A DNA stretch of 64,000 nucleotides from Empedobacter falsenii (lineage in GTDB: Bacteria > Bacteroidota > Bacteroidia > Flavobacteriales > Weeksellaceae). The notes under the pieces are model-generated. The model saw nothing but the letters and a program-made list of their open reading frames with translations, did no database searches and was not told the DNA's origin. Each line of letters opens with the position of its first letter. Positions within the stretch are counted from its first letter, which is position 1. The position numbers and the translations under genes are program-made. Location: positions 434,001 to 498,000 of the forward strand of contig NZ_CP040908.1 of the NCBI RefSeq assembly GCF_013488205.1. Reading direction: 5' to 3'. This document shows, in pieces, positions 8,375-63,853 of the stretch.

Positions 8375-8382
8375 TATCTTTG
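8375..8382 (+). promoter_or_regulatory. -7 element 4 nt before a start codon (leaderless candidate)
   Basis: TATCTTTG then CAGA then ATG at 8387. Using the SRP RNA gene as ruler, transcription should start on or within 1-2 nt of the ATG. No good TTTG -33 element is visible at 19 bp. Confidence 0.65.
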
Positions 8383-8386
8383 CAGA

Positions 8387-8956
8387 ATGGTTAGTTTTAA
8401 TAAAATTTTCAAAAACTCTTTGGTGCTTACGGCAATTACATTAGCATTGTTTTTCGCACTTTACTTTTATTTTTCGTTAAATGGAACAGTTTCTGTAAAA
8501 GATTATTACACTTACAGCTTCATGATTTGCTGTTTTATTGTATTACCTTTATATGCATTATATTGTTTCTTAACAATTTTCAATTTATCGAAAAATAAAG
8601 CAAAAAATCATCAAACTTCAGAAGAATTAATGACTTTCAAAGAAGGTTTCAAAGTTGGTTTCTACACAATTTTCTTCGCAGGAATCATGAGTTTGATTGT
8701 TATTTTTGTATTCTTCAATACTTATGGAGAATGGGCACAAGATAGTTTGAAACAAGGATTGTTAGACACTTTTACGTCTAATATGTCTGATCCAAAAGTC
8801 GCAAAAGATATCGAAACATTCAGAAATTCGGATGATTATAAAACACTTAATTTATTTACTGTGAAAAACTTCTTCGGATTATTCTCAATTTTCTTATCTT
8901 TCTACATCGCAATTGCAGCGATGTTTTCACAATTCTTAAAAAAACGTGTTTTTTAA
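8387..8956 (+). CDS. DUF4199 family membrane protein
   Basis: The 189-residue product has four hydrophobic segments (about 12-33, 43-65, 88-111 and 158-183), the topology and length of DUF4199 proteins. These are found next to DPM1-like glycosyltransferases in Bacteroidota. The downstream glycosyltransferase starts 3 nt after its stop, so the two are co-transcribed and probably act together at the inner membrane. The molecular function of the family is not known. A TATCTTTG element ends 4 nt before the ATG, suggesting a leaderless message. Confidence 0.8.
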   Translation: MVSFNKIFKNSLVLTAITLALFFALYFYFSLNGTVSVKDYYTYSFMICCFIVLPLYALYCFLTIFNLSKNKAKNHQTSEELMTFKEGFKVGFYTIFFAGIMSLIVIFVFFNTYGEWAQDSLKQGLLDTFTSNMSDPKVAKDIETFRNSDDYKTLNLFTVKNFFGLFSIFLSFYIAIAAMFSQFLKKRVF

Positions 8957-8959
8957 CAT

Positions 8960-9922
8960 ATGGATATTTCAGTTGTTGTTCCTTTATTGAATGAACAAGA
9001 TTCCTTAGAGGAATTATTCTACAGAATCAAAAAAGTCTGTGAACAGAATGATTTTACATTCGAAGTTATTTTCGTTGATGACGGAAGTACAGATGATTCG
9101 TGGCAAATTATCGAATATATTGCCAACTTCAATACAGAAGTGAAAGGAATTAAATTCCGTAAAAATTATGGTAAATCTCCAGCACTTAGCGCTGCTTTTA
9201 AAGAAGTAAAAGGTGATGTTGTGATTACTATGGATGCAGATTTACAAGATTTTCCTGAGGAAATTCCGTCGTTATACAAAATGCTGAAAAACCAAAAAGC
9301 AGATATTGTTTCGGGTTGGAAAGAAAATCGTCAAGATAATAAGTTGACAAAAAATCTTCCTTCCAAATTATTCAATGGTGTTGCACGTAAAACGTCTGGT
9401 GTAAAATTGCACGATTTTAATTGTGGTTTGAAAGCTTATCGTTGGGAAGTGACGCAAAATATTGAATTGTATGGAGATATGCACCGCTATATTCCTGTTT
9501 TAGCGAAAAATGCTGGATATTCGAGAATTATTGAGAAAAAAGTAAAACATCAAGCGCGTAAATATGGTGTGTCAAAATTTGGAGCAAATCGTTTTGTAAA
9601 TGGTTTCTTGGATTTGATTACACTTTTCTTTGCATCAAGATTCGGGAATAAACCAATGCATATTTTCGGTTTATTGGGAACATTGATGTTTATTTTAGGA
9701 TTTTTCGCTTCATTTTATTTAGGTATTGAGAAATTATACAAAGTTTATATTTCGCATACACCAGCCAGATTAATTACAGATAGTCCTTATTTTTATATCT
9801 CGTTAGTTTTTATGATTTTGGGAACGCAATTATTTTTGGCGGGATTTTTGGGCGAGTTAATTGTTCGTAATAATCGCGATAAACAATTGTATTTAGTTCA
9901 AAAAGAATTGAATTTAAACTAA
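8960..9922 (+). CDS. Family 2 glycosyltransferase, DPM1/ArnC/GtrB-like
   Basis: The 320-residue product begins with a GT-A domain (about 1-210): VVPLLNEQDSLEELF, nucleotide-binding VDDGSTDDSW and metal-binding MDADLQDFPEEIP. Two C-terminal membrane segments follow (about 230-255 and 270-300). This layout is that of polyprenyl-phosphate sugar transferases, which load a sugar from a nucleotide donor onto a lipid carrier at the inner membrane. Donor and acceptor cannot be told from sequence. It follows the DUF4199 gene by 3 nt and precedes a GIN-domain lipoprotein and a phosphohexomutase that could supply sugar phosphates. Confidence 0.9.
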   Translation: MDISVVVPLLNEQDSLEELFYRIKKVCEQNDFTFEVIFVDDGSTDDSWQIIEYIANFNTEVKGIKFRKNYGKSPALSAAFKEVKGDVVITMDADLQDFPEEIPSLYKMLKNQKADIVSGWKENRQDNKLTKNLPSKLFNGVARKTSGVKLHDFNCGLKAYRWEVTQNIELYGDMHRYIPVLAKNAGYSRIIEKKVKHQARKYGVSKFGANRFVNGFLDLITLFFASRFGNKPMHIFGLLGTLMFILGFFASFYLGIEKLYKVYISHTPARLITDSPYFYISLVFMILGTQLFLAGFLGELIVRNNRDKQLYLVQKELNLN

Positions 9923-9939
9923 TTAAATAACCAACTACT

Positions 9940-10644
9940 ATGAAAAAAATAATTTTATTAGGATTTTTAGGTTTAGTTGCAACTTCGTGTTCATCATCAA
10001 TTGATGGAGAAGGTGCTGCAACGGCTCAAAAAGAATATACTGCTGACAATATCAAAGATTTGAGCGTTTCGTGTAATTGTAATGTTATTTTGGTTCCGGG
10101 AAATAAATCTGGAGTTAAAGTAGAATCGCATCAAAATATTATTGACAATTTAGAAGTTGAAGCAAAAAATAATGCGGTTACAATCAAAGAAAAATCAAAT
10201 GTAGACCATTATAGTGCCTATGATTTGTATGTTTATGTGACGCGTGATTTAGAAAAAATCGATGTGAATAAACAAACTTCTTTGACAACTTCTGGAACAT
10301 TGAATGTCGATAAATTGACAATGAATGCGAAGGATCAAGCAAGAATTAATCAAACTTTTTTGATTACAAACAACTTTGATTTAAAAGCGGAAGATCAATC
10401 TAATATCATGTTAGAAGGAACTGCTGGAACTATGAAAGTGAAAGCTTATGGCGAAGCACAATTGAATTTGTTCAAATACGAAGTCAACGAAGCTAATTTC
10501 ACAACTGATGATAATGCTTTGTTAGATATCAATGCGCGCCAAACGCTTTATGGTTCTGCAAAAGGAAACTCAATCGTTAATTTTATGGGCGATCCAAATA
10601 AGGATACAAAAATTGCCGACCGTGCCCAAGTATTAAAAAAATAA
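9940..10644 (+). CDS. GIN-domain (DUF2807) lipoprotein
   Basis: The 234-residue product has a lipoprotein signal (MKKIILLGFLGLVATSC, lipid-bearing Cys at 17) and a repetitive beta-rich body with alternating hydrophobic residues, matching the 'putative auto-transporter adhesin, head GIN' domain, a right-handed beta-helix fold. It should sit in the outer membrane facing the periplasm or surface. Its role is not established. It lies 17 nt after the glycosyltransferase and 9 nt before the phosphohexomutase, so all are probably one transcript. Confidence 0.8.
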   Translation: MKKIILLGFLGLVATSCSSSIDGEGAATAQKEYTADNIKDLSVSCNCNVILVPGNKSGVKVESHQNIIDNLEVEAKNNAVTIKEKSNVDHYSAYDLYVYVTRDLEKIDVNKQTSLTTSGTLNVDKLTMNAKDQARINQTFLITNNFDLKAEDQSNIMLEGTAGTMKVKAYGEAQLNLFKYEVNEANFTTDDNALLDINARQTLYGSAKGNSIVNFMGDPNKDTKIADRAQVLKK

Positions 10645-10653
10645 AAAATAAGA

Positions 10654-12369
10654 ATGACTTCAAGTTTAGATAATGCTAAATTATGGCTTTCTGACGCTTA
10701 TGATGCGGAAACAAGAAAGGCTGTTCAAGATTTAATTGATAATAATCCAACCGAATTAGACGATTCTTTTTATAAAAACCTTGAGTTTGGAACAGGAGGA
10801 ATGCGTGGTATAATGGGAGTTGGAACAAATCGTTTAAACAAATATACACTTGGTGCAGCGACGCAAGGTTTAGCAAATTATATCAATCAACAATTTCCGA
10901 ATAAAGAGAAAAAAGTTGCGATTGCTTACGATGTTCGCCATAATTCGGATACGTTCGCAAAAATGGTTGCAGATGTTTTGACTGCGAATGGAATCAATGT
11001 TTATTTGTTCGAATCTTTTCGTCCAACGCCAGAATTGTCTTTCACAGTTCGTCATTTAGGTTGTGATGCTGGAATTGTGTTGACAGCTTCTCATAATCCT
11101 CCAATTTACAATGGTTACAAGGTTTATTGGAATGATGGAGCGCAAATTGTTCCGCCACAAGATGGAGAAATTATCAACGAAGTAAATAATGTAAAAGTTG
11201 AAGAAATCAAATTTCAAGGGAACGATGCATTGTTGACATATATCGGAAAAGAAATTGATGAAGCTTTTATTGATGCTTGTGTAGCAAATGGAAGTTTTAC
11301 GCAAGAAGGTAAAGAAGATATAAAAATTGTTTTCACTTCTATTCACGGAACTGCAGTTGCAATTACGCCAAAAGCTTTTGAAAAAGCTGGTTTTACTCAA
11401 GTTCATCAAGTTGCTGAGCAAGCAATTCCAAGTGGAGATTTCCCGACAGTAAAATCGCCAAATCCAGAAGAACCAGAAGCATTAACTATGGCAGTTGCTT
11501 TAGCAAATGAAATTGATGCTGATGTTGTGATTGGAACAGATCCTGATGCGGATCGTGTAGGTGTTGCAACGCGTAACAATGAAGGTGAAATTGTTTTATT
11601 AAATGGTAACCAAATGAACACTGTGTTGGCTTACTATTTATTAGAAAAATGGCAAGAAGCAGGTAAATTAGTTGGAAAAGAATTTATCGCTTCGACAATT
11701 GTAACGTCTGATATTTTCTATGATATTGCTGCTAAATTCAATGTTGATTGTAAAGTTGGATTAACAGGTTTTAAATGGATTGCTGATATGATTCGCAAAT
11801 TCGAAGGCAAAGAAAGTTTTGTTGGAGGAGGAGAAGAATCGTTCGGATTTATGGTTGGAGATTTTATCCGCGATAAAGATTCTGTTACAACAGCTTTATT
11901 AGTTTCTGAAATTGCTGCTGTACAAAAAGCGAAAGGAAGTTCATTGTACAATAAATTAATGGAAATCTATCTTGAAATCGGAAAAGCATATCAAGAAGAT
12001 TTAATTAGTATTGTAAAACCTGGAAAAGAAGGTGCAGAGTTAATTGCTAAAATGATGGTGGAATTTAGATCAAATCCTCCAAAAGAATTAGCAGGTTCTA
12101 AAGTTGTTCGTGTAAAAGATTTTCAATCTTCTATCGACAAAGATTTGACTTCTGGTGAAGAAAAAGCGATTGAAATACCTAAGTCAAATGTATTGATTTT
12201 CTATACAGAGGATGGAAGTAAAGTAGCTTGTCGACCTTCTGGAACAGAACCAAAGATTAAATATTATTTCTCTGTAAATGCTCCACTTTCTAACAAAGAA
12301 GATTATCCAGCTGTTCAAAAAGCGTTGTTAGCGAAAATCGATTTGTTGAAAGAAGATTTTAGCAAATAA
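10654..12369 (+). CDS. Phosphohexomutase (phosphoglucomutase/phosphomannomutase family)
   Basis: The 571-residue enzyme moves phosphate between C1 and C6 of a hexose phosphate. It shows the phosphoserine loop TASHNPP (Ser146), the metal loop DPDAD (Asp296, 298, 300), the sugar-binding GGGEESFG loop and the C-terminal phosphate loop RPSGTEPKIK. Length fits the long PgcA/PMM2-like subfamily. Substrate preference (glucose, mannose or glucosamine phosphates) cannot be read from sequence. It is the last gene of a cluster with a lipid-sugar glycosyltransferase, and a strong hairpin terminator follows. Several long antisense reading frames here are shadows. Confidence 0.93.
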   Translation: MTSSLDNAKLWLSDAYDAETRKAVQDLIDNNPTELDDSFYKNLEFGTGGMRGIMGVGTNRLNKYTLGAATQGLANYINQQFPNKEKKVAIAYDVRHNSDTFAKMVADVLTANGINVYLFESFRPTPELSFTVRHLGCDAGIVLTASHNPPIYNGYKVYWNDGAQIVPPQDGEIINEVNNVKVEEIKFQGNDALLTYIGKEIDEAFIDACVANGSFTQEGKEDIKIVFTSIHGTAVAITPKAFEKAGFTQVHQVAEQAIPSGDFPTVKSPNPEEPEALTMAVALANEIDADVVIGTDPDADRVGVATRNNEGEIVLLNGNQMNTVLAYYLLEKWQEAGKLVGKEFIASTIVTSDIFYDIAAKFNVDCKVGLTGFKWIADMIRKFEGKESFVGGGEESFGFMVGDFIRDKDSVTTALLVSEIAAVQKAKGSSLYNKLMEIYLEIGKAYQEDLISIVKPGKEGAELIAKMMVEFRSNPPKELAGSKVVRVKDFQSSIDKDLTSGEEKAIEIPKSNVLIFYTEDGSKVACRPSGTEPKIKYYFSVNAPLSNKEDYPAVQKALLAKIDLLKEDFSK

Positions 12370-12397
12370 TTATTTAGAATAAATATTAATATAAATA

Positions 12398-12431
12398 GAA
12401 AATGGCTGTCAATTTTGACAGCCATTTTTTT
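12398..12431. terminator. Bidirectional terminator between the phosphohexomutase and PiT genes
   Basis: A 12-bp stem (AATGGCTGTCAA at 12401-12412 with its complement at 12415-12426) has A's on the left and a T-run on the right. It can serve the converging transcripts from both sides. Confidence 0.85.
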
Positions 12432-12450
12432 ATATGATTAAATTTTAATG

Positions 12451-13548
12451 TTAGAAAAACATTGAAAATAGATAATAAAATCCTGTTGCAATAAGTGCAG
12501 AAACTGGAATTGTCAAAATCCAAGCCCATAATAAACTAATTGTAACTCCCCAACGAACAGCAGAAACTCTTTTTACCATTCCAACACCAATAATAGAACC
12601 CGTAATCACGTGAGTTGTAGAAACTGGCATTTTGATATGTTCAGTAAAAAATAATGTAATAGCTGAAGCTGTTTGCGCTGTGAAACCTTCGATAGGAGTA
12701 ATTTTTGTAATTTTATTTCCCATCGTTTTTAAGATTTTCATTCCGCCACCTAAAGTTCCTAAAGCAATTGCCGAGAAACACATAATCGGAACCCAATCAT
12801 GAATATCAGTACTACTTGTTGTGATGAACCAATGTTTCCAATTGAAAACATCATTCAAAATCCAATCATTCATATCAGTATTAACAATCGCAGTTTGATT
12901 GGCAAGTAAAGCAAATGTGATTACTCCCATTACTTTTTGAGAATCATTCAAACCATGACCAATACTCAACATGGCAGATGAAACCAATTGCAATTTCTTG
13001 AACCAAGCATCTGCTTTATGCGGTTTTGCATTTCGACAAAGATTCAGCGTGATGATGTAAATAACATTACCAGCGACTAAACCAATAATTGGCGCGACCA
13101 AAATGAAAGCGATAATCGTTAAGATAATTGTACTATTAATCGCAGAAAAATCATAACCTGTCGCAGCTAATGCACCTCCAGCTAATCCTCCAATCAATGT
13201 GTGAGATGAGGAAGAAGGGATTCCTAATTTCCAAGTTAAAATATTCCAAGTAATAGCGGCAGAAAGTGCTGCCATAACAACTACAGATGGATTAGAGCCA
13301 AATGCGACAACAACATCTTCTTTGATAATTTTAGCGATTGTGTCTGCAACTCCGAATTCTCCAATGATAAATTTGGCAATGAAAAAAGCAACAAAATTGA
13401 AAAATGCAGCCCAAATAACAGCCTGAATTGGAGTTAAAACCTTTGTAGTAACAACGGTTGCAATAGAGTTTGCGGCATCGTGAAAACCATTTAAGAAATC
13501 AAATAAAATGGCTAAACCGATAATGATAAATAATACAGTTAATTGCAT
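12451..13548 (-). CDS. Inorganic phosphate transporter, PiT family (second copy)
   Basis: The 365-residue protein has about ten membrane segments and the duplicated PiT signatures: GFHDAANSIATVV near the N terminus and PVSTTHVITGSIIGVG near the C terminus, plus LGIPSSSSHTLIGG. PiT carriers import metal-phosphate with protons or sodium. It lies beyond a terminator from the DUF47-PiT pair and has its own promoter. That TAAATTTG element ends 4 nt before the ATG, implying a leaderless mRNA. It is a close paralogue of the gene at 13663-14769, without the longer central loop there. Confidence 0.92.
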   Translation of the reverse strand: MQLTVLFIIIGLAILFDFLNGFHDAANSIATVVTTKVLTPIQAVIWAAFFNFVAFFIAKFIIGEFGVADTIAKIIKEDVVVAFGSNPSVVVMAALSAAITWNILTWKLGIPSSSSHTLIGGLAGGALAATGYDFSAINSTIILTIIAFILVAPIIGLVAGNVIYIITLNLCRNAKPHKADAWFKKLQLVSSAMLSIGHGLNDSQKVMGVITFALLANQTAIVNTDMNDWILNDVFNWKHWFITTSSTDIHDWVPIMCFSAIALGTLGGGMKILKTMGNKITKITPIEGFTAQTASAITLFFTEHIKMPVSTTHVITGSIIGVGMVKRVSAVRWGVTISLLWAWILTIPVSALIATGFYYLFSMFF

Positions 13549-13552
13549 GGCG

Positions 13553-13560
13553 CAAATTTA
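13553..13560 (-). promoter_or_regulatory. -7 element 4 nt before the second PiT gene (leaderless candidate)
   Basis: On the minus strand TAAATTTG is followed by CGCC and then ATG at 13548. The spacing is identical to that before the DUF4199 gene and lnt. Confidence 0.65.
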
Positions 13561-13608
13561 AAACTTTCTTAAACTTATCATTTATCAATTTCGAAAATTA
13601 TTTCAAAA

Positions 13609-13635
13609 ATAAAAAAGGAGCTTATAAAAGCTCCT
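13609..13635 (-). terminator. Terminator after the first PiT gene
   Basis: The 8-bp stem AGGAGCTT (13616-13623) pairs with AAGCTCCT (13628-13635). The A-run at 13611-13616 reads as U's on the minus strand. It separates the two PiT genes into different transcripts. Confidence 0.8.
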
Positions 13636-13662
13636 AAATATTAATGATATTGATTGTTATTT

Positions 13663-14769
13663 TTAAACAAATAATGTTACGATGTAGTAAATCAATGCAG
13701 CTAATAATGCTGAGACTGGAATGGTAAGAACCCAAGCCCAAAGTAAACTAATTGTTACTCCCCAACGAACTGCAGATACACGTTTCGTTAAACCTACACC
13801 AATAATAGAACCTGTAATTGTATGCGTTGTAGAAACTGGAATTCCGAAATGCTCAGAAATATAAAGCGTCATTGCTCCTGAAGTTTCAGCTACTACACCT
13901 TCTAATGGTGTTACTTTTGTAATTTTAGACCCCATTGTTTTGATGATTTTCCATCCACCACCCATTGTACCTAATGCGATAACAACAAACGATGTAATAG
14001 GAACCCACATCCAATGCGCTACGAAATATTGGAATTTATCTTCTGCTTGTACATAAGCTGGGTCAAAATCGACATTCATGTGATAGAAGATAACCGCTGC
14101 TCCAATAATACCCATTACCTTTTGCGCATCATTCATACCGTGTCCTAAAGAGAAAAGGGCAGAAGAAACCAATTGCAATTTCTTGAACCACCATTCTGCT
14201 TTTGCAGGTTTGGCTCTTTTACAAATATGAAGCGTGATTATGGTTAATATTGAGGCGATAATCATACCAATTAATGGTGCTAATACAATAAAGCATACAA
14301 TAGGAATTACTTTTTTGTAAACAATTACATCTTCTCCACCAGCAGAAAAACCACCAGCATGAGCTAATGCAGCTCCAATAAAACCACCAATTAATGTATG
14401 AGAAGAAGAAGAAGGAATACCAAACTTCCATGTTAATAAGTTCCAAGAAATGGCAGCGATAATTCCAGCTAAAATAACTTCTAGTGTAATAAAATGCTCG
14501 TTAACCGATTTTGCAATCGTATTACCAATCTTAAATTCTCCAATCCAATAGACCGAAATAAAATAAGCTGCAAAGTTGAATGCTGCTGCCCAAAGTACAG
14601 CCTGAAAAGGTGTTAAAACCTTAGTAGCGACAATGGTAGCAATAGAATTTGCTGCGTCGTGAAAACCATTTATATAATCAAAAACAAAAGCTAAGACGAT
14701 AATAGTAATCAATAACATTCCTGGCGTTGACGTAAGCATGCTCGAAAACGCTGAAAAAAATTCTGTCAT
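13663..14769 (-). CDS. Inorganic phosphate transporter, PiT family (first copy)
   Basis: The 368-residue membrane protein has GFHDAANSIATIV near residue 36, FGIPSSSSHTLIGGFIG, and the C-terminal PVSTTHTITGSIIGVG, the duplicated hallmark of PiT phosphate carriers. It begins 22 nt after the DUF47 gene, the usual DUF47-pit pairing in which the PhoU-like partner is thought to control the carrier. A terminator follows. It and the copy at 12451-13548 share most of the C-terminal half nearly word for word, pointing to a tandem duplication. Confidence 0.93.
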   Translation of the reverse strand: MTEFFSAFSSMLTSTPGMLLITIIVLAFVFDYINGFHDAANSIATIVATKVLTPFQAVLWAAAFNFAAYFISVYWIGEFKIGNTIAKSVNEHFITLEVILAGIIAAISWNLLTWKFGIPSSSSHTLIGGFIGAALAHAGGFSAGGEDVIVYKKVIPIVCFIVLAPLIGMIIASILTIITLHICKRAKPAKAEWWFKKLQLVSSALFSLGHGMNDAQKVMGIIGAAVIFYHMNVDFDPAYVQAEDKFQYFVAHWMWVPITSFVVIALGTMGGGWKIIKTMGSKITKVTPLEGVVAETSGAMTLYISEHFGIPVSTTHTITGSIIGVGLTKRVSAVRWGVTISLLWAWVLTIPVSALLAALIYYIVTLFV

Positions 14770-14791
14770 AATCTTTTAGATTAAGTTATGG

Positions 14792-15436
14792 TTATGAGTG
14801 TTTTACCGCTACTGCTTCCAATACATTTGCAACACTTTTACACTTATCTGTTGCAGATTCTAATGAAGATAAAACTTCCTTGTATTTGATGATGTTTTTG
14901 GCATCAGTTTCGTTCTCAAAAATTTCTTGAACCGCTTTATCAAAAATACGATCCGATTTATTTTCTAATTTATTGATTCGTTCACATATTTCGTAAATAC
15001 GATTTACGTTTCTCAAATCTTTCAATTGCTCAATTCCTTCACCGATTAATTGACAAGCCTCTAAGTTAACAGCTGTAATTTTGCGGATAGATTTTGTAAT
15101 TTTATCTACTTGATAAATATTGATACGATTCGCTGCACCATTTAAATTATCTGCAACATAATCGATAGATTTTACTAATTGATAAATATCTTCTCTGTCA
15201 AAAGGCGTGATAAAGTTTTTACTTAACTCTAAATTTGTTTTTTGAGTAAGATATTCAATTTTACTTTCGATTTTAGAAATTTGTGCGATGTAATCTTCGC
15301 GTTCCTCAACTGGAGCGTTTACACATTCGTGTAACAATTCAGCTAATTTGATTAAACTTTTTGAAGCCTCCTCGAACAAAGGATAGAAAACTTTATCCTT
15401 TGGAGTAAATAATTTAAAAAATGAGTTTACCGACAT
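14792..15436 (-). CDS. DUF47 (PhoU-like) phosphate transport regulator
   Basis: The 214-residue, highly charged all-helical protein matches the DUF47/TIGR00153 family, PhoU-like four-helix bundles encoded beside PiT carriers. It starts MSVNSFFKLFTPKDKVFYPLFEEASKS, a typical opening. It is the first gene of the DUF47-pit operon and is cytoplasmic. A TAATTTTG element at 15456-15463 places the transcript start about 15 nt upstream, and AT-rich inverted repeats lie just beyond. The regulatory role is inferred from gene pairing. Confidence 0.9.
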   Translation of the reverse strand: MSVNSFFKLFTPKDKVFYPLFEEASKSLIKLAELLHECVNAPVEEREDYIAQISKIESKIEYLTQKTNLELSKNFITPFDREDIYQLVKSIDYVADNLNGAANRINIYQVDKITKSIRKITAVNLEACQLIGEGIEQLKDLRNVNRIYEICERINKLENKSDRIFDKAVQEIFENETDAKNIIKYKEVLSSLESATDKCKSVANVLEAVAVKHS

Positions 15437-15455
15437 TTAATAATGTTTTGAAGTG

Positions 15456-15463
15456 CAAAATTA
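15456..15463 (-). promoter_or_regulatory. -7 element of the DUF47-pit promoter
   Basis: TAATTTTG on the minus strand, a full consensus match. Just upstream (15471-15489) is the inverted repeat TAATGT-N7-ACATTA, overlapping the spacer and -33 region, a plausible operator position. Confidence 0.55.
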
Positions 15464-15661
15464 ATTTTTCTAATGTAAAATTAACATTAAATAAATGTTT
15501 ACACGAAATAAACTTGATAATCTTTTCAATTTTAATTGCTTAAAATTAATTAAAATTGAAAAATGATTTAGTAACTAGTTTTTTAACTTTTATTCATTAT
15601 AAATTGATAAATTTATGATAGACAAAAAACGAATACTTTAAAATTAATGTAATACTATAAA

Positions 15662-17890
15662 ATGAAACCTCTACAATCTGAAAATCATCATCAATTTTTA
15701 TCAACGCATTTTCTTGATCAAAACCCTCTTGGGTTTGCTTACTTCTCTGGTAACGAATTGTTGTTGTCTTATGCTAATTCCAATTTTTATAAATTTTTAG
15801 GTTTACAAAATAGTGTTATTGGAAACGTTGCAAAATCAATTTTTGAAAAGACTCAGCTTCTCGAAATTTATTCGATGATTACGAAAGTTTATCATTGCAA
15901 TAATAGTTCGAAAGAAATGAAAGTTGTTGGTTTAAAAAATGAAGATAAAGGACAAACTGATTTTTTAGAGATAATTGTTTCATCTGTTATTAGTCCAGAT
16001 AATAATTCTGTAGAAGGGGTTTCTGTTGTTATAAAGGAGATTGTTGAGCAAGATTACAATGAAAACACTTTAGAAAATTCTATCACTAATTTTGATTACA
16101 TAGTTTCAAATTCATTGGCTTCTACAATTGTTCTAACTGGAATTGATCCAATAATTGAAGTAGCTAATCAAAAAATGGTTGAATTTTTAGGGAAAGGAAA
16201 TTCACTTTCTGGTAATAGACTTTTTACTGTTTTTCCTGAATTAGAAACAGAAAATTTCCTGAAATTATACAAGAAAGTATATGTTGATAAAGTAGAGCAG
16301 GAGGAAAAGGAGTTTAAAGTAGATTACTTTTATAATAATATTCTTTGTAGTAAGTTTTTGCATTTGTTACTACGACCAAAATTAAATAATAATCGAGAAG
16401 TAGTCGCCATCATCATCTCGTTAATTGATATTACTGATTTAATCGAAACACGTGAAAAGCTTAGAAAAAATGAGAATCTGTTAAAAGCTTTTTTAGAACA
16501 TGTTCCAGTTTCAATAAATGTTTTAGAAGGAGAAAATTTTGAGTATAAATTATCTAATAGTCTAACAGATCAGATTTGGGGGCATCATGTCGAAATAGGT
16601 TCTACTGTAAAAGATACAGTTTCATATATAAAAGATCGACCTATTTATAAAGATTTGCAATCGGTTTTTAAGACAGGTGAGCAAATCGAAAGAAAAGAAC
16701 ATCAGTTTTTAGATAATAATGGAAATATAAAATATGTCAATTATATTTTGCAGCCAATCAAAGATGAAGAAAATAAGGTTGAATATATTTTGACTTTAGG
16801 TTATGATGTGTCGAATGAAATTGAATATAAAAACAAATTAGAAGCTAACGAGAAGCGATTTAAAATTTTAGCAGATTTTATGCCTCAATTTGTTTGGACT
16901 TCAGACAAAGATGGTGTTGTGACTTATTTTAATAGAAATTGGTACGAAATATTTGGATTGGATGATAATATTGATCTGGATAAGAATTTTTGGAGTTTAT
17001 TACATCCAGAATCTCTTGATAAAGTGCGAAATAGTTGGATGGATGCAGTCCGTCAAAATTCTACTTATGAAGTAGAATATCAATTAGTGAATCCAATTAC
17101 CAATATCAGCAAATGGTATTTAGCACGTGGAAAAAGAGTTTGTAATGATAATGACGAAATTGAACTTTGGATTGGTACTTGTACAGATATTGATGATTTC
17201 AAACAATTACAGAAACAAAAAGACGATTTTATTGGAATAGCTAGTCATGAACTGAAAACGCCTTTGACAAGTTTAAAATTGTATGCACAATCTGTAGAAA
17301 TAAATCTTCGAAAACAAGGAGATGAAAAAAATGCTGAAGTTGTTAAGAAAATGGAAACACAAATCAATAAACTGAATAAGTTGATTTCAGATTTGTTAGA
17401 TGTTACCAAAATCCAAAGTGGACGAATGGTTTTACAAGATTCTATTTTTTTGATGGAAGATTTGGTTGCTGAAATTGTAGAAGAGCAGCAGATGTCTACA
17501 AAAACACACACAATTATTTTGAATAAAGAAAGTGTTGGATATATACGTGGTGATAGAGATAGAATAGGGCAAGTTTTGAGTAATCTTATTAACAATGCAG
17601 TGAAATATTCGCCAAATGCAAAAGAAGTAGAAGTAAATTTAGAGTTGATTGATGGTTTTGCAAAAGTTTCAATAAAAGATAACGGTTTTGGAATTCCTCA
17701 AAATAAAATTCACCAAGTTTTTGATCAATATTTCAGAGTAGGTAGCGAATATGAACAAGGAATTAATGGTTTGGGATTAGGATTGTTTATTTGTGCTGAA
17801 ATCATAAATAAAAGTAGTGGTCAAATCTATGTCAAATCAGAATTACATAAAGGTTCTACTTTCTGTTTTGAGTTGCCAATTCTCAAATAA
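15662..17890 (+). CDS. Orphan PAS-domain sensor histidine kinase
   Basis: The 742-residue protein has no signal peptide or membrane segment. It holds three or four PAS/PAC-like sensory modules (about 15-120, 130-260, 275-390 and 395-515; the last resembles PAS_3, with WTSDKDGVVTYFNRNWYEIFG and LHPE). The kinase core follows: H-box IASHELKTPLTSLK (phospho-acceptor His529), N-box NLINNAVKYSPN, and G-boxes DNGFGIP and GLGLGLFI. It is a cytoplasmic HATPase_c kinase of the HisKA type. No response regulator lies beside it, so its partner is elsewhere. The signal is unknown; PAS domains often sense redox, light or small molecules. Confidence 0.93.
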   Translation: MKPLQSENHHQFLSTHFLDQNPLGFAYFSGNELLLSYANSNFYKFLGLQNSVIGNVAKSIFEKTQLLEIYSMITKVYHCNNSSKEMKVVGLKNEDKGQTDFLEIIVSSVISPDNNSVEGVSVVIKEIVEQDYNENTLENSITNFDYIVSNSLASTIVLTGIDPIIEVANQKMVEFLGKGNSLSGNRLFTVFPELETENFLKLYKKVYVDKVEQEEKEFKVDYFYNNILCSKFLHLLLRPKLNNNREVVAIIISLIDITDLIETREKLRKNENLLKAFLEHVPVSINVLEGENFEYKLSNSLTDQIWGHHVEIGSTVKDTVSYIKDRPIYKDLQSVFKTGEQIERKEHQFLDNNGNIKYVNYILQPIKDEENKVEYILTLGYDVSNEIEYKNKLEANEKRFKILADFMPQFVWTSDKDGVVTYFNRNWYEIFGLDDNIDLDKNFWSLLHPESLDKVRNSWMDAVRQNSTYEVEYQLVNPITNISKWYLARGKRVCNDNDEIELWIGTCTDIDDFKQLQKQKDDFIGIASHELKTPLTSLKLYAQSVEINLRKQGDEKNAEVVKKMETQINKLNKLISDLLDVTKIQSGRMVLQDSIFLMEDLVAEIVEEQQMSTKTHTIILNKESVGYIRGDRDRIGQVLSNLINNAVKYSPNAKEVEVNLELIDGFAKVSIKDNGFGIPQNKIHQVFDQYFRVGSEYEQGINGLGLGLFICAEIINKSSGQIYVKSELHKGSTFCFELPILK

Positions 17891-18071
17891 TTTTTTCAAT
17901 TATTCGCGATTATTATCATTTTTGAAATAAAAGATTTTACTATTATTGATTTTCTTGGTGAAATCTTTCTTCCACGTTAAAATACTGTAAAAAAATACTT
18001 AGCGAATTATAAAATTTTATAAATCAATGCAAAATAAATGTCTAAATATTTTTTTTTGCTAGAATATTTTG

Positions 18072-55691: not shown

Positions 55692-55710
55692 AATATAACG
55701 TTTAGAATAC

Positions 55711-55747
55711 AAAAAATCCACTTAAATTATTTAAGTGGATTTTTTTA
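55711..55747. terminator. Bidirectional terminator after maeB
   Basis: A 12-bp stem (AATCCACTTAAA at 55715-55726 with its complement at 55730-55741), A's to the left and T's to the right. It serves maeB and the opposing lipoprotein gene. Confidence 0.87.
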
Positions 55748-55749
55748 TT

Positions 55750-56181
55750 TTATTCAACGACTATTTGATAAATTCCGTTTTGAGAATGAGCTTCAATATC
55801 TTCAAATGAAACATTATCTATTTTATTTCCTCCACATTTTCCGGATAATTTAGAAGCATTAACAGTAAAATTAAAGAATTTAATTTCTTTTGTTAATACT
55901 AAAGCTTCATAGGTTGTAGAACCTACTATCCATCCAGGTTTATTTAAAATAACTCTACTTTCATGATTAATTTCAAAAGAAGTTCCGATTTTAGTATCGC
56001 CCGCAATTTGTAAGAAATGAAAATGTTCTTTTGTTAATGTTCCATTTTGTATTAAATTTTCTCCTTTTGAATTTACAAATTCCATTACAATAGGCTCTGG
56101 AGGTGTAAAACAATCGCTATCATCGTTACAAGAAAATAGTATAAATGAAAAGACGAAAGTTAAAAAAAGTAATTTTTTCAT
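55750..56181 (-). CDS. Small lipoprotein of unknown function
   Basis: The 143-residue product has a lipoprotein signal (MKKLLFLTFVFSFILFSC, Cys at 18) followed by an acidic CNDDSDC stretch and a beta-rich domain with four Cys in the mature part. No known domain was recognised. Such short lipoproteins are frequent in Bacteroidota and probably lie in the outer membrane. It is single and converges on maeB at a shared terminator. Confidence 0.65.
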   Translation of the reverse strand: MKKLLFLTFVFSFILFSCNDDSDCFTPPEPIVMEFVNSKGENLIQNGTLTKEHFHFLQIAGDTKIGTSFEINHESRVILNKPGWIVGSTTYEALVLTKEIKFFNFTVNASKLSGKCGGNKIDNVSFEDIEAHSQNGIYQIVVE

Positions 56182-56343
56182 AGTAGATTAATTTTTAAAA
56201 AGATGAATAAAAATAAAATAGGTTGCGTAATGATAAATAATATTTACGAATAATTATAACATCTGTAAAATGTATTTATTGTAATGAGGATTAAAACTCA
56301 ATTAAGAATTATTTTAATATATTGTAAACTTAATTGAATTAAT

Positions 56344-57267
56344 ATGAAGAAGATTTACATTTTATTACTTACTGCAAGTACATTATCATTTGCGCAGAAG
56401 AACACATCTTTTGAAGCCAAAGAAGGATTTATATTAGGAAATATCCATACTCAAAATGGTTGGGATGTTGCGGAGGGAAACGGAAAAATTTTAAATAATC
56501 AACTTGTTTCTGATGAACAAGCAAGTGAAGGAGTTTATTCTTTCAAGAATGGAGATCAGATTGATTTTGGTGATCAATGGTTTCCAGTAATGGGCGTTAC
56601 CAAAATGTTTGATAAACCGGTTGATTATAAAAATTTTACAATTTCATTTGATGCTTTTGTAACAAAACGAAATGGAGCCGATTTTGAATTTACGTTATTT
56701 ACAGTTAATTCGGCTACAGATGAGTTTTATCCAGTTGCTGGTCTTGGAATGGAGAATAGGGGATATTTGTATATTACAAAAAATATTGATTATGGTTTCG
56801 ATTATGCTGATGCAGCAGAAGGTTGGCTAATTAATAAATGGAATAATTTTAAAATTGAAGTTACAGAGAATCAGATTAAGTATTATCTAAATGATAAATT
56901 AGTTTACACAGGTGATAATTTTACGAAATTAGATGTTCATGGTTTTACAATGCTTCATAATAATTATGGCGGAGATGCTTATTATGATAATTTTAAATTC
57001 AGTACAGATGATTTAGCAGTGAATCAAGTTAATCAGAAAGAATTCAAAGTTTATCCAAATCCTGTGCAAGATGTTTTAACATTCGATACGAATTTTTATG
57101 ATCAGATTTCAGCAGTTGAGGTTTCTAATACTGTTGGTCAAATTGTTTTGAAAACTGATAAATCTTTAAAAGAAATGAATACATCATCTTTAAAATCGGG
57201 AATATATTTTGTGAAAATCTATATGAAAGATGGAAAAACAATGACAAGAAAAATTATTAAAAAATAA
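56344..57267 (+). CDS. Secreted protein with lectin-like domain and T9SS type A sorting domain
   Basis: The 307-residue product has a short signal peptide (cleaved near LSFA-QKNTS), a jelly-roll/concanavalin-like beta domain (about 20-220; VDYKNFTISFDAFVTKRNGADFEFTLF, GWLINKWNNFKIEVTENQIKYYLNDKLVY) and a type A T9SS domain (about 232-307; FKVYPNPVQDVLTF ... GIYFVKIYMKDGKTMTRKIIKK). It should be exported by the type IX system. Carbohydrate binding is a guess from the fold; no catalytic residues were identified. Confidence 0.8.
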   Translation: MKKIYILLLTASTLSFAQKNTSFEAKEGFILGNIHTQNGWDVAEGNGKILNNQLVSDEQASEGVYSFKNGDQIDFGDQWFPVMGVTKMFDKPVDYKNFTISFDAFVTKRNGADFEFTLFTVNSATDEFYPVAGLGMENRGYLYITKNIDYGFDYADAAEGWLINKWNNFKIEVTENQIKYYLNDKLVYTGDNFTKLDVHGFTMLHNNYGGDAYYDNFKFSTDDLAVNQVNQKEFKVYPNPVQDVLTFDTNFYDQISAVEVSNTVGQIVLKTDKSLKEMNTSSLKSGIYFVKIYMKDGKTMTRKIIKK

Positions 57268-57271
57268 ACAC

Positions 57272-57298
57272 AAAAAAAGCCTCGCAATGCGAGGCTTT
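57272..57298 (-). terminator. Terminator after dnaK
   Basis: A stem of up to 10 bp (AAAGCCTCGC with GCGAGGCTTT, within 57276-57298) has an A-run to the left that reads as U's on the minus strand. The plus-strand side is a weaker T-rich tract that may also stop the T9SS type A gene. Confidence 0.88.
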
Positions 57299-57322
57299 CC
57301 TTATTTGATAAATGAAATTCTA

Positions 57323-59233
<1,911 letters not shown>

Positions 59234-59274
59234 TTATTTTTTATATTATTAATGATTTATTTTAAACTTTTACA

Positions 59275-59291
59275 CATCATCAAAAATGATG
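59275..59291 (-). promoter_or_regulatory. 5'-proximal hairpin of the dnaK leader
   Basis: CATCAT (59275-59280) pairs with ATGATG (59286-59291) around a 5-nt loop. If transcription begins near 59295, this hairpin forms the first part of the dnaK mRNA. Confidence 0.4.
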
Positions 59292-59304
59292 CTACAACAG
59301 AATA

Positions 59305-59321
59305 GTCAATCTTTGTGCCAA
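59305..59321 (-). promoter_or_regulatory. Sigma-54-like -24/-12 promoter of dnaK
   Basis: On the minus strand TTGGCAC, five bases, then TTGAC. The -24 half matches the TGGCAC-N5-TTGCA consensus in full and the -12 half keeps TTG. No perfect TAnnTTTG element lies in this leader. Assignment is by consensus only. Confidence 0.5.
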
Positions 59322-59333
59322 CGTAGAAAATGG

Positions 59334-59431
59334 TGACATCTCAATTTTTAAAATGTCATGTTGTCAGATTATGATGAATGATTTGATTATTTATCGATAA
59401 AAAAGTCAGTTTATTGATTGATAAAATGTCA
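59334..59431. promoter_or_regulatory. TGACA repeat cluster upstream of dnaK
   Basis: Minus-strand TGACA occurs at 59427-59431, 59362-59366 and 59354-59358, and an inverted copy at 59334-59338. The last two form the perfect inverted repeat TGACAT-N13-ATGTCA (59334-59358). They lie upstream of the sigma-54-like element, where an enhancer-binding protein or repressor could act. Confidence 0.45.
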
Positions 59432-59469
59432 GCGTTAAATTATATTTAAACTTTATCTTAATCTCAGTC

Positions 59470-60351
59470 TTACCCAATCTTACTTCCGTTTTCTACTTTT
59501 CGTTCGGGATTCAAAAGAATAACATCGTTATTATTTCCATAAACACCCATTACGAGACATTCGCTCATAAAAGTGGCAATTTGTTTTTTCGGGAAGTTAA
59601 CTACAGCCATTATTTGTTTTCCAATCAATTCTTCTTTGCTATAAAGCGACGTAATTTGCGCCGAACTTTTCTTGATTCCTAACGGACCAAAATCAATTTC
59701 TAATTGATAAGCAGGATTTCTTGCTTTCGGAAAATCATTTGCACTGATAATTGTTCCAATTCTCATATCAACTTTTTCGAAATCTTGCCAAGAAATTGTT
59801 TCAGTATTATTTTCAGGTTTTGGTTCTTCTTTTGGTTTATTTTCTTTGTCGTAAATTGTTTGTAGAATTTTTTCTAAATCCGTTTTTTCGTCCGCATATT
59901 TCGTTTTCATGTTATCTGGCATTCGGTTATAATACGTCAACGCTTTTTCGCCAAATTGTTTGATGTAAAAATTAGTCAATGGAGGAACGTTTGGAAATTG
60001 TTTATGAAAAATCATTTCTGTATACGCTTGCCATTCGCGTTCTTCTCGCAATTCAATTTGATTTTCGCCCGAACGCTGAAAAACATGTACCATTTCGTGC
60101 ATCAAAACATTGGAAAGTAATACTAAATCAAAATCAAGAATATTACGCGGAACACGAATTGTAATTCCTGTTTTTTCTTCACCTTCTGCAGTCAATAAAA
60201 AACCTTTTGGATCGATTTCTTCTCGAAACGTAAAACCTGTAAAAGCATTATGTTTTAATTTCAATTCATCTAAAATTTCGTACAATGCTTCAACGATTAA
60301 GTGATTATTTTTTAAATAATTTATTCTTTCCTTAAATTTTTCTGTAATCAT
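59470..60351 (-). CDS. Zincin-like domain fused to a CsaA/EMAP-type tRNA-binding domain
   Basis: The 293-residue product joins two parts. Residues about 1-160 hold HEMVH (His85, Glu86, His89) and a downstream REEREWQAYTE segment, the pattern of a small zinc metallopeptidase. After a Lys/Pro/Glu linker (about 165-180), residues 182-293 are a CsaA-type OB-fold: WQDFEKVDMRIGTIISANDFP, ARNPAYQLEIDFGPLGIKKSSAQIT and LVMGVYGNNNDVILLNPE. CsaA proteins usually stand alone (about 110 residues) and bind tRNA or act as export chaperones. No signal peptide, so cytoplasmic. The zincin family and substrate are unknown. Its promoter faces away from that of the M1 peptidase. Confidence 0.8.
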   Translation of the reverse strand: MITEKFKERINYLKNNHLIVEALYEILDELKLKHNAFTGFTFREEIDPKGFLLTAEGEEKTGITIRVPRNILDFDLVLLSNVLMHEMVHVFQRSGENQIELREEREWQAYTEMIFHKQFPNVPPLTNFYIKQFGEKALTYYNRMPDNMKTKYADEKTDLEKILQTIYDKENKPKEEPKPENNTETISWQDFEKVDMRIGTIISANDFPKARNPAYQLEIDFGPLGIKKSSAQITSLYSKEELIGKQIMAVVNFPKKQIATFMSECLVMGVYGNNNDVILLNPERKVENGSKIG

Positions 60352-60370
60352 AGCTTTTTGGCTTATTTAT

Positions 60371-60378
60371 CAAATATA
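60371..60378 (-). promoter_or_regulatory. -7 element of the zincin-CsaA fusion gene
   Basis: TATATTTG on the minus strand, a full match, predicts a start near 60365 and a leader of about 14 nt. Confidence 0.55.
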
Positions 60379-60384
60379 TAATCT

Positions 60385-60392
60385 TATTTTTG
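60385..60392 (+). promoter_or_regulatory. -7 element of the M1 peptidase gene
   Basis: TATTTTTG, a full match, only 6 bp from the opposing -7 element. It predicts a start near 60397-60399, leaving a leader of roughly 8 nt to the ATG at 60406 or 14 nt to that at 60412. Confidence 0.5.
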
Positions 60393-60405
60393 ATATGTTT
60401 TAAAA

Positions 60406-62055
60406 ATGACTATGAAGAAATTAGTACTATTACTTGGCTTGATCTCGATAACAACAAATGCACAAGTACTTAATAACAAACAAGAGTTTACGCGACAAGA
60501 TTCGCTTCGCGGAACGAATAATGAATTCCGAAATTGGTGGGATGTTAAAAAATATAAAGTAAGTGTAGAACCAGATTATCAGTCAAAATCGATAAAAGGA
60601 AAAACGACAATTACGTTTGATAAAATTGCTCCTCAACAATCAGATTTATTGCAGATAGATTTACAAGATCCAATGATGGTTTCGGCTGTAAAATTGAATG
60701 GAAAGAAAATTTCTGATTTCAAACGTGATGGAAATGTCTATTTTATTAATGTCGGAAAAAATATCAAGAATACGTCGAATCAATTAGAATTAGAATACAA
60801 CGGAAATCCTCGTGTTGCGGTGAGAGCGCCTTGGGATGGTGGTTGGATTTTTGCGAAAGATGAAAAAGGTCGAGATTGGATGTCTGTAGCCGTGCAAGGT
60901 TTGGGTGCAAGTGCTTGGTTTCCGAACAAAGATTATTTAGGCGATGAACCAGATAATGGAATGGAATTGGAAATTATCACACCAAAAGATTTGGTAGGAG
61001 TTGGTAATGGACGATTAGTTTCTAAAAAAGAGAAAAATGGTAAAACAACTTCTACATGGAAAGTTGTTAATCCAATTAATAATTATAATATCATTCCTTA
61101 TATCGGACATTATGTCAATTTCAAAGATACTTTCGAAGGCGAAAAAGGTAAATTGGATTTAGATTATTATGTGTTAGATTATAATATAGATAAAGCAAAA
61201 TTGCAGTTTGAACAAGCAAAATTGATGTTGAAAAGTTTTGAATATTGGTTTGGACCTTATGCTTTCTACGAAGATTCTTTCAAGATTGTAGAAGCTCCGC
61301 ATTTAGGAATGGAGCATCAATCTGGAATTGCGTACGGAAATAAATTCGAGAATGGTTATTTAGGTCGTGATTTATCAGGTTCTGGCTGGGGATTGAAATG
61401 GGATTTTATCATCGTTCATGAAGCTGGTCACGAATGGTTTGGGAATAATATTACCGAAAAGGATGTGGCAGATATGTGGATTCACGAAGCGTTTACGGCT
61501 TATTCGGAAACTTTGTTCACAGAAACTTATTATGGAAAAGATGCGGCAAGCGAATATGTGCGTGGAACGAGAAAGGCAATCCAAAATGATATTCCAATTA
61601 TCGGCGTGTATGGCGTAAACCAAGAGGGTAGTGGTGATATGTACTATAAAGGTGCAAATATGATTCACACGTTGAGAACTTGGATGAATAATGATGAAAA
61701 ATTCAGACAAATGTTGCGTGGATTAAACAAAGAATTTTATCATCAAACTGTAACTACAGAACAAATTGAAAATTATATTGCGAAGTTTTCTGGTTTAAAT
61801 TTGAACGCTTTTTTCAATCAATATTTAAGAACAGTTAAAATACCTACTTTAGAACTTAAACAAAATGGAAATAAAGTAGAATATCGTTATACAAATGTTG
61901 TGGATGGATTTGCAATGCCTTTGCGATTGAAAGATTCTGATGTAACCATCAATCCAACGACTAATTGGCAAACAATTAATAACTCAACAATTACAAAAGC
62001 GATTGATGTAACAATTAATCCAAATTATTATATCGATACGCATATTATATATTAA
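60406..62055 (+). CDS. M1 family zinc aminopeptidase
   Basis: The 549-residue product has a signal peptide (start at 60406 MTMKKLVLLLG or, as likely, 60412 MKKLVLLLG; cleaved near TNA-QVLNN). It has an N-terminal beta domain, the substrate-binding GMEHQSGIAYG and the zinc site HEAGH (His338, His342) with Glu361, exactly HEXXH-X18-E. It is therefore a secreted or periplasmic aminopeptidase. It is shorter than the 850-residue PepN, as in the Bacteroidota peptidase M1 group without the helical C-terminal domain. It shares a 54-bp divergent promoter gap with the zincin-CsaA fusion gene. Confidence 0.93.
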   Translation: MTMKKLVLLLGLISITTNAQVLNNKQEFTRQDSLRGTNNEFRNWWDVKKYKVSVEPDYQSKSIKGKTTITFDKIAPQQSDLLQIDLQDPMMVSAVKLNGKKISDFKRDGNVYFINVGKNIKNTSNQLELEYNGNPRVAVRAPWDGGWIFAKDEKGRDWMSVAVQGLGASAWFPNKDYLGDEPDNGMELEIITPKDLVGVGNGRLVSKKEKNGKTTSTWKVVNPINNYNIIPYIGHYVNFKDTFEGEKGKLDLDYYVLDYNIDKAKLQFEQAKLMLKSFEYWFGPYAFYEDSFKIVEAPHLGMEHQSGIAYGNKFENGYLGRDLSGSGWGLKWDFIIVHEAGHEWFGNNITEKDVADMWIHEAFTAYSETLFTETYYGKDAASEYVRGTRKAIQNDIPIIGVYGVNQEGSGDMYYKGANMIHTLRTWMNNDEKFRQMLRGLNKEFYHQTVTTEQIENYIAKFSGLNLNAFFNQYLRTVKIPTLELKQNGNKVEYRYTNVVDGFAMPLRLKDSDVTINPTTNWQTINNSTITKAIDVTINPNYYIDTHIIY

Positions 62056-62059
62056 AACT

Positions 62060-62127
62060 GAATGAGATATTGAAACGAGTTCAACATGACAAGGAAAGTC
62101 AACCTGAACTTGTTTCATGTTCTCATC
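62060..62127. repeat. Inverted pair of a short intergenic repeat
   Basis: Left arm 62060-62090 and right arm 62098-62127 are imperfect reverse complements of each other (right arm core CTGAACTTGTTTCA; left arm core TGAAACGAGTTCA). They could fold into a long stem with a 7-nt loop. The same family occurs at 40891-40920. It resembles REP-like intergenic repeats of Bacteroidota. Confidence 0.6.
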
Positions 62128-62185
62128 CAAAATGATTTATAAAATATTCCAAACAAATATCATCGGTTATTGAATGATGAAATTA

Positions 62186-62193
62186 TAAATTTG
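62186..62193 (+). promoter_or_regulatory. -7 element 4 nt before lnt (leaderless candidate)
   Basis: TAAATTTG, then TGAC, then ATG at 62198. Same spacing as at 8387 and 13548. Confidence 0.6.
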
Positions 62194-62197
62194 TGAC

Positions 62198-63853
62198 ATG
62201 AAAAAATATATTGCATACGCAATCTTATCAGGATTATTATTAACAGCAGGTTGGCCATCGCACGGCTTTCCATTGTTATTATTTATAGGATTTGTACCCT
62301 TGATGTTAGCAGAACATCAAATTACGCAACGCGCTGAATTCAAGAAAAAAGGACGTAAAATTTTCGGACTTTCGTTTTTAGCTTTCTTTATTTGGAATGC
62401 GATTGTAATTTGGTGGTTGCATTATGCACAAGAAACAGACGCGAATGGAGATTTGCACAATTCGTGGAGCGCTTATTTAATTCCTGTTGTAGCAAATTCC
62501 TTGTTTATGTCAATTGTTTTTCAGTTGTATCATTTTGTCAAAACAAAAGCTGGTAATCTGTATGGATTGGTTTTTCTTCCTGCGATTTGGATGAGTTTTG
62601 ACAAACTAACCTTGAATTGGGAACTAACTTGGCCTTGGTTTAACCTAGGAAATGGTTTTGCAAAATATTACGAATGGGTGCAATGGTATGAGTATACAGG
62701 AACTTTTGGAGGTGCACTTTGGATTTGGTTAGTTAATATTACGGTATTCTATTATTTGACGGCTTATATTAATAAGAAAGAAATGAGATATCTAAACAAA
62801 TTAGGTATTTATGCGGGATTATTAATCGCTGTTCCAATTGGTATTTCTTATATTATTTATGCGAATTATGAAGAAAAAGGAAAAGCGCTTGATGTGTTAG
62901 TTCTTCAGCCAGATCTTGATCCATACAATGAAAAGTATATGAAAGATGGTTTGCAGATTTATGACGAATTGAAACAATTGGCACTGAAAAATATTCAACC
63001 AAAAACTCAATTTGTTGTTGCACCAGAAACTGCCGTACCTGGATCATCTGCCTTGATTTTTGATAATATGTATGATGATTTAATTATACAAGACATTCAG
63101 CAATGGACAAAAACTAAAAAAGATTTACATTTTGTAACAGGAGCATCAATTATGCGAATTTATCCAATGCAATCTTTAGCATCGGAAACGGCATCTGTTA
63201 TGAGAGATGGAATTACGTGGTACGACGCTTATAATTCGGCTTTGCAGATAAGTGGAAACGATTCAATAGAAGTTTATCATAAGAGTAAATTAGTACCTGG
63301 AGTAGAAATTTTTCCATATCGAAACATTTTAATGCCAATTATTGGAGAATTTATGCTTAACTTTGGCGGCACAACAAAAACGTTGGGGATTCAACCTCAT
63401 CGTTCTGTTTTCAAGAATAAAACAAACAACGCTACTGTTGCTCCGGTTATATGTTACGAATCTATTTACGGAGACTATACGACAGAATATGTGAGAGAAG
63501 GCGCAAATGTTATATTCACAATGACCAACGATTCTTGGTGGGGCTCTACCGATGGTCATCGTCAATTACTATTATATGGTAATTTGAGAGCTATTGAAAA
63601 TAGACGCGCTATCGTTAGATCTGCAAATTCAGGTATTTCGGCTTTCGTTAATCAGCGAGGAGATATAATGAAGTCTTTACCATATGGAGAGCAGGGTGCC
63701 TTAAATGGTACAATTTTAATGAATAGTGAATTAACGTTTTATACAAAATATGGCGATGTAATCGCGAGGATAGCGCTGTTGGTAATGGGAATTATCTTGG
63801 CTTATACTCTTGCGCAGAAGTTGTTATATAAACAAAATAAGAAAAAAATATAA
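62198..63853 (+). CDS. lnt: Apolipoprotein N-acyltransferase
   Basis: The 551-residue inner-membrane enzyme adds the third acyl chain to lipoproteins. It has about six N-terminal membrane segments (to about 230), a periplasmic nitrilase-like domain (about 235-520) and a last membrane segment. The catalytic triad is visible: Glu277 in APETAVPG, Lys362 in YHKSKLVPGVE and Cys419 in PVICYES. The window's many lipoprotein genes give it local substrates. A perfect -7 element ends 4 nt before the ATG, predicting a leaderless mRNA. Confidence 0.95.
   Translation: MKKYIAYAILSGLLLTAGWPSHGFPLLLFIGFVPLMLAEHQITQRAEFKKKGRKIFGLSFLAFFIWNAIVIWWLHYAQETDANGDLHNSWSAYLIPVVANSLFMSIVFQLYHFVKTKAGNLYGLVFLPAIWMSFDKLTLNWELTWPWFNLGNGFAKYYEWVQWYEYTGTFGGALWIWLVNITVFYYLTAYINKKEMRYLNKLGIYAGLLIAVPIGISYIIYANYEEKGKALDVLVLQPDLDPYNEKYMKDGLQIYDELKQLALKNIQPKTQFVVAPETAVPGSSALIFDNMYDDLIIQDIQQWTKTKKDLHFVTGASIMRIYPMQSLASETASVMRDGITWYDAYNSALQISGNDSIEVYHKSKLVPGVEIFPYRNILMPIIGEFMLNFGGTTKTLGIQPHRSVFKNKTNNATVAPVICYESIYGDYTTEYVREGANVIFTMTNDSWWGSTDGHRQLLLYGNLRAIENRRAIVRSANSGISAFVNQRGDIMKSLPYGEQGALNGTILMNSELTFYTKYGDVIARIALLVMGIILAYTLAQKLLYKQNKKKI

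Follow-up and report, generated by a model that had tools for sequence, protein, structure and literature searches.

Do some mRNAs of Empedobacter falsenii begin directly with their start codon? This question is raised by a 64-kb stretch of its 3.76-Mb genome (positions 434001-498000, G000:C1; "the window" in the following), in which three genes carry the Bacteroidota housekeeping -7 element TAnnTTTG exactly 4 nt upstream of the start codon. These are a gene encoding a DUF4199 membrane protein, the second of two genes for PiT-type phosphate transporters (PiT2), and lnt, encoding apolipoprotein N-acyltransferase. Very probably, the main mRNAs of all three start with 5'-AUG, and we predict them to be leaderless. 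This prediction is based on an excess of the 4-nt spacing over chance, its phasing with the likely transcription start, conservation of the spacing despite diverging flanks, and a near-empty interval between short and long spacings. The arrangement had been described in an earlier note on this DNA. Upon re-reading, its coordinates and spacers agreed, and all three start codons are ATG:

8375-8382, forward strand: -7 element TATCTTTG of the DUF4199 gene; spacer CAGA at 8383-8386, spacing 4, ATG at 8387
8387-8956, forward strand: DUF4199 membrane protein gene (PF13858, E 5e-13), predicted leaderless with +1 at the A of ATG 8387
13560-13553, reverse strand: -7 element TAAATTTG of the second PiT gene; spacer CGCC at 13552-13549, spacing 4, ATG at 13548
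12451-13548, reverse strand: PiT-type phosphate transporter gene, second copy (PF01384, E 1.3e-82), predicted leaderless
62186-62193, forward strand: -7 element TAAATTTG of lnt; spacer TGAC at 62194-62197, spacing 4, ATG at 62198
62198-63853, forward strand: lnt, apolipoprotein N-acyltransferase gene (PF20154 and PF00795), predicted leaderless

Spacing of the -7 element and the predicted transcription start

The spacing was analyzed in a sample comprising the window and 60 further 20-kb stretches of the same genome (61 stretches, 1.264 Mb). Genes were called by a script relying on the coding score alone, with upstream sequence unused. From the 1031 genes called, 42 located at a stretch edge or with less than 150 nt of upstream sequence were dropped, resulting in 989 genes. 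Perfect elements at spacings 0 to 12 before these starts numbered 1, 3, 0, 1, 14, 4, 5, 3, 3, 1, 0, 0, and 1. Hence, spacing 4 forms a sharp peak of 14 out of 989 genes (about 1.4%), and spacings 4-8 together account for about 3%. At spacing 4, 29 permuted patterns composed of the same letters gave 0 to 3 hits (mean 0.48). The earlier note had proposed such a count of ATG codons following TAnnTTTG in comparison with shuffled sequence, and had regarded the lack of a 4-nt excess as evidence against leaderlessness; the excess was found.

Outside the window, 11 of 932 genes had spacing 4. Within it, 58 of 73 listed open reading frames were kept (the 15 left out were mostly short and overlapping), and 3 of the 58 showed this spacing. 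Three such genes among the 57 called in the window are mildly clustered when judged by the rate of the genome itself (P 0.03), compared to P 3e-6 at the rate of the permuted patterns. From spacing 15 onwards leadered promoters become frequent, with a maximum at spacings 17-20 (11 each), and spacings 9-14 between the two classes are almost empty. When four genomes were pooled (1801 genes), spacing 4 was found 29 times, the six spacings 9-14 together 12 times. An upstream gap of at least 70 nt preceded 13 of the 14 spacing-4 genes versus 579 of the 975 others (P 0.011). Further genomes showed the peak as well, with 6 out of 286 genes in G090 and 6 out of 257 in G116 and permuted controls of at most 1 in both. 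In G043 it was weak (3 out of 269 genes), and one permuted control reached 2.

Leadered elements (n=166, spacings 15-45) have an A at the fifth following base in 55% of cases, the highest value of eight positions (others 27-48%). The gene for the signal recognition particle (SRP) RNA in the window provides a further reference point:

4115-4108, reverse strand: -7 element TACCTTTG of the SRP RNA gene; 4-nt spacer at 4107-4104, first paired base 4103 (RF04183 alignment)

In the Rfam alignment the first paired base of the stem is the fifth base after the element. This agrees with the earlier suggestion that SRP transcripts begin about 5-6 nt past the element and narrows it to the fifth base. Since the preference for A in leadered elements and the start of the SRP stem both point to offset 5, the +1 of DUF4199, PiT2, and lnt is most likely the A of ATG. 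The Rfam match to the Bacteroidales small SRP reaches 7 nt 5' of the stem (4104-4110, reverse strand) and overlaps the end of the -7 box by 3 bases; therefore, the 5'-end of this match should not be taken as the transcript start. In the literature, the TAnnTTTG box of Flavobacterium psychrophilum is located at -12 to -5, i.e. with a 4-nt spacer (PMC9723704). In F. johnsoniae, the distance from the -7 element to the start is 4 or 5 nt for many transcripts, and the -33 TTTG element is much less evident (PMC6847099).

According to the proposed mechanism, TAnnTTTG would serve as the -7 box of the Bacteroidota housekeeping sigma factor and would place +1 at roughly the fifth base behind its G. For DUF4199, PiT2, and lnt this base would be the A of ATG, so that the main mRNA would begin with 5'-AUG and lack a leader. 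Ribosomes would then start on the 5'-terminal AUG without upstream sequence. Initiation on a terminal AUG by a general leaderless route also takes place in other bacteria.

In this genome, leadered genes have an A-rich sequence ahead of their ATG. The 14 spacing-4 genes, window genes included, carry 1.43 A at -4 to -1 versus 2.13 A in 183 leadered genes (P 0.014, small numbers), as expected if these bases lie outside the mRNA. Seven 16S 3'-ends were found, of which the two that were read are both GGCTGGAACATCTCATATTTAG and lack the CCTCC anti-Shine-Dalgarno core. The copies read here and in a family member are:

L060:10132-10165 and L090 about 10765-10815 (reverse strand): 16S 3'-end GGCTGGAACATCTCAT..., without CCUCC core; two copies read of seven
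L236:7524-7560: 16S 3'-end GGCTGGAACATCTCAT..., without CCUCC core; one copy of four, family member G043

Relatives such as Chryseobacterium, Elizabethkingia, Riemerella, and Weeksella have already been listed as lacking this core; the name Empedobacter has 0 occurrences in PMC6107228.

Conservation of the spacing among relatives

The genomes compared are related, and the following counts are not independent of each other. All 14 genus genomes examined show spacing 4 for DUF4199, even where protein identity falls to 55% and despite diverging flanks, and in two of these 14 an alternative in-frame start is located 7 codons upstream. Protein N-termini aligned from residue 1 in 13 of 14 DUF4199 loci, 13 of 13 PiT loci, and 41 of 43 lnt loci. 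For PiT2, 8 of 13 genus loci share spacing 4; four others have spacing 28, 29, 31, or 32, and one is without a perfect element within 75 nt. The spacings of 28-32 suggest that in some relatives the same gene is leadered. The two tandem PiT genes (12451-14769, reverse strand) are about 59% alike, and the genus member G176 shows one match only.

From the 100 family genomes with a match to lnt, 70 were examined for the nearest perfect element within about 75-80 nt. In 23 genomes its spacing was 4-7, in 1 it was 8-14, and in 42 it was 15 or more; it was missing in 4. By eye, elements with one mismatch were noted at spacing 4 or 7 in some of the loci with spacings of at least 15 and in one of those without a perfect element. 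In a separate set, which overlaps the 70 genomes and was left out of this tally, 10 out of 13 loci have spacing 4. The lnt protein shares 99% identity with its counterparts in Empedobacter tilapiae and E. falsenii.

A looser case is the gene encoding a regulator with TPR and AraC-type helix-turn-helix (HTH) matches, which the earlier note had described as nearly the same as the other three. Its element was confirmed, but the spacing is 7:

8305-8298, reverse strand: -7 element TATTTTTG of the TPR-AraC gene; at spacing 7, for which a leader of 2-3 nt is predicted
6821-8290, reverse strand: gene for a TPR and AraC-type HTH regulator (PF12833, E 3e-11; TPR matches weak), near-leaderless at most

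Spacing 7 was found in 3 of the 5 loci in which the protein was detected (14 loci given).

The idea of a core set of always-leaderless genes was rejected on the one gene tested. For mnmE, 60 class genomes were searched and 30 loci compared, 6 of which have their nearest perfect element at spacing 4-6, with the start codon being uncertain in several loci; a leaderless arrangement of this gene is thus not conserved. In L298, L302, L305, and L306 a start at spacing 4-6 accompanies a variable N-terminal extension of MnmE, which resembles a shift of the start codon towards the promoter. At G000:C1:9432-9446 (reverse strand) the ATG following a spacing-4 element opens a gene with two GTPase-domain matches to MnmE (Der-like).

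Protein classes and competing explanations

The earlier note remarked that all four genes of the window encode membrane proteins and suggested leaderless initiation as a shared mode of such genes. Membrane segments were predicted by a rough hydropathy measure (19-residue windows, mean at least 1.6), with three or more segments regarded as polytopic. In the window the remark is supported, with 4, 7, 5, and 2 segments; all 3 spacing-4 genes are polytopic compared to 8 out of 57 window genes. It does not generalise. When the genes outside the window were split by predicted membrane localisation, as the earlier note had recommended, three or more segments were predicted for 2 of 26 spacing-4 genes versus 231 of 1718 others (P 0.56) and one or more for 6 of 26 versus 534 of 1718 (P 0.52), i.e. 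without any enrichment. For spacings 4-8 there is even a trend to fewer membrane proteins (3 out of 57 versus 230 out of 1687, P 0.07). In a Pfam scan 23 of the 26 genes were matched, mostly as cytoplasmic enzymes and DNA or RNA proteins, among them DNA polymerase III delta subunit, TatD, MnmE, a TrmD-type methyltransferase, an ABC-F-like ATPase, DnaB, SAICAR synthetase, and Dus. Envelope-related exceptions were a BioY transporter, a metallophosphatase with hydrophobic segments, a YfiO-type outer-membrane lipoprotein, and a phosphodiesterase with one N-terminal hydrophobic segment. A mode specific to membrane proteins was rejected on the basis of this sample, and its selection for membrane-protein genes appears highly unlikely. 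The leaderless mode is a minority mode that is found genome-wide and serves many kinds of protein.

TAnnTTTG is common in AT-rich DNA. The 64-kb window holds 111 such elements on both strands together, and the three genes were picked by eye, which might favor a coincidence. Against it stand the spacing-4 peak, which is also seen beyond the window and in further genomes, the low permuted controls, and the conserved spacing. Chance is refuted for the group and as a general explanation seems extremely improbable, although any single gene could still owe its spacing to chance. Alternatively, the elements may be real while a second promoter further upstream produces the translated mRNA, the leaderless transcript being a minor or silent by-product. 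PiT2 has a further TAnnTTTG at spacing 55, which is also present in the close relative L156 and makes a leadered transcript possible for this gene. In L157-L162, however, this element is absent within 75 nt and spacing 4 is kept, and neither DUF4199 nor lnt has a second perfect element within 150 nt. We consider such a by-product unlikely.

Besides the second element of PiT2, several observations weigh against leaderless mRNAs as the main products. The 5'-ends in this organism were deduced from sequence alone, and the gene starts were derived from our own caller, which was checked against the window open reading frames only. Published fractions of short leaders are low, with 5.5% leaderless among mRNAs of 890 coding sequences with high-confidence transcription start sites in F. 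psychrophilum (PMC9723704) and about 3.7% of 5'-untranslated regions (UTRs) shorter than 10 nt in Bacteroides thetaiotaomicron (PMC7366714). One-mismatch elements form just a low shoulder in this genome (12 at spacing 4, 9-10 at spacings 5-8) and peak at spacing 4 only in G090 (13), with no peak in G043 (1) and G116 (2). Raw pattern hits in the sample, counted without regard to gene starts, are weak: 51 at spacing 4, 57 at spacing 3, and 56 at spacing 12. In G145, G106, and G148, three of 30 class-level genomes, a reversed-pattern control exceeds the count at spacing 4. For these reasons raw counts at one spacing were rejected as proof, and among the counts only those at called starts bear our main conclusion. 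In all 30 genomes at class level or nearer, raw hits at spacing 4 outnumber those at the phase-matched spacing 10 (3131 versus 1768), and in 27 of them they are higher than the reversed-pattern control (summed by eye). This class-level excess supports the leaderless prediction without carrying it.

Leaderless mRNAs of DUF4199, PiT2, and lnt may be part of a wider picture, which we put forward tentatively and whose three parts, taken jointly, appear possible rather than probable. A lineage that lost the 16S anti-Shine-Dalgarno sequence might have two separate selected modes, with leaders of either 0-4 nt or no fewer than about 11 nt. Selection might act against leader lengths of 5-10 nt, and orthologues might switch modes when a promoter or a start codon crosses the gap. 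DUF4199 and lnt might be held leaderless for a regulatory reason, e.g. the state of the ribosome or of an initiation factor. No statement of a leader-length gap or of orthologues switching modes was found in the partially available texts on leaderless mRNAs in Bacteroidota.

Relation to known systems and wider distribution

Minority leaderless mRNAs have already been published for flavobacteria and Bacteroides, and the genes presented here constitute a well-supported new set of a known kind. The closest likeness is to F. psychrophilum, which shares the -7 box TAnnTTTG, the 4-nt spacer, and a leaderless minority (PMC9723704); its starts were mapped by RNA-seq, in contrast to the sequence-derived starts of Empedobacter. 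F. johnsoniae resembles our genes in that a distance of 4 or 5 nt between the -7 element and the start is frequent. Leaders exceed 10 nt in 87% of its predicted transcripts with a probable promoter, leaving 13% shorter, but in the text available this short-leader class is not broken down gene by gene, unlike here (PMC6847099). B. thetaiotaomicron, a more distant member of the phylum, has some transporters and sensor kinases among its short 5'-UTRs, although no link to membrane proteins is claimed in the accessible sections (PMC7366714). A search for TA-led leaderless genes likewise read a promoter box at a fixed distance upstream of the start as leaderlessness (PMC3160421). Bacteroidetes are also among the phyla in which an upstream AT bias of non-Shine-Dalgarno genes may reflect leaderless mRNAs (PMC5397173). 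That bias is a statistical one over genomes and, as far as the available text goes, does not include an exact spacing to the -7 box. The same survey cites reports of a high leaderless fraction in Bacteroidetes, and another sequence survey mentions leaderless mRNA in some Flavobacteriia.

A test for leaderless genes in Bacteroidota that requires sequence data only is provided by the exact 4-nt spacing, the near-empty gap at 9-14, and orthologues found both below and above this gap. DUF4199, lnt, PiT, and mnmE are named genes that allow a direct check of a leaderless start. Furthermore, the leaderless mode is placed in a genome whose 16S copies, as far as read, lack the anti-Shine-Dalgarno core, which bears on the question of how ribosomes find their starts.

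Raw pattern counts were obtained for 118 phylum genomes and, outside the class of Empedobacter, were summed for three families. Spacing 4 versus spacing 10 gave 840 versus 779 in f14, 756 versus 612 in f21, and 235 versus 59 in f22. A search for the FMO protein family, bearing on f22 as green sulfur bacteria, yielded matches in 0 of 4 genomes, 3 of them from f22, and likewise in 0 of 14 control genomes. The strong raw excess at spacing 4 in f22 comprises 6 genomes, G116:C1 and five others. In the G116 sample the elements near starts are mostly located at spacings 3-8.

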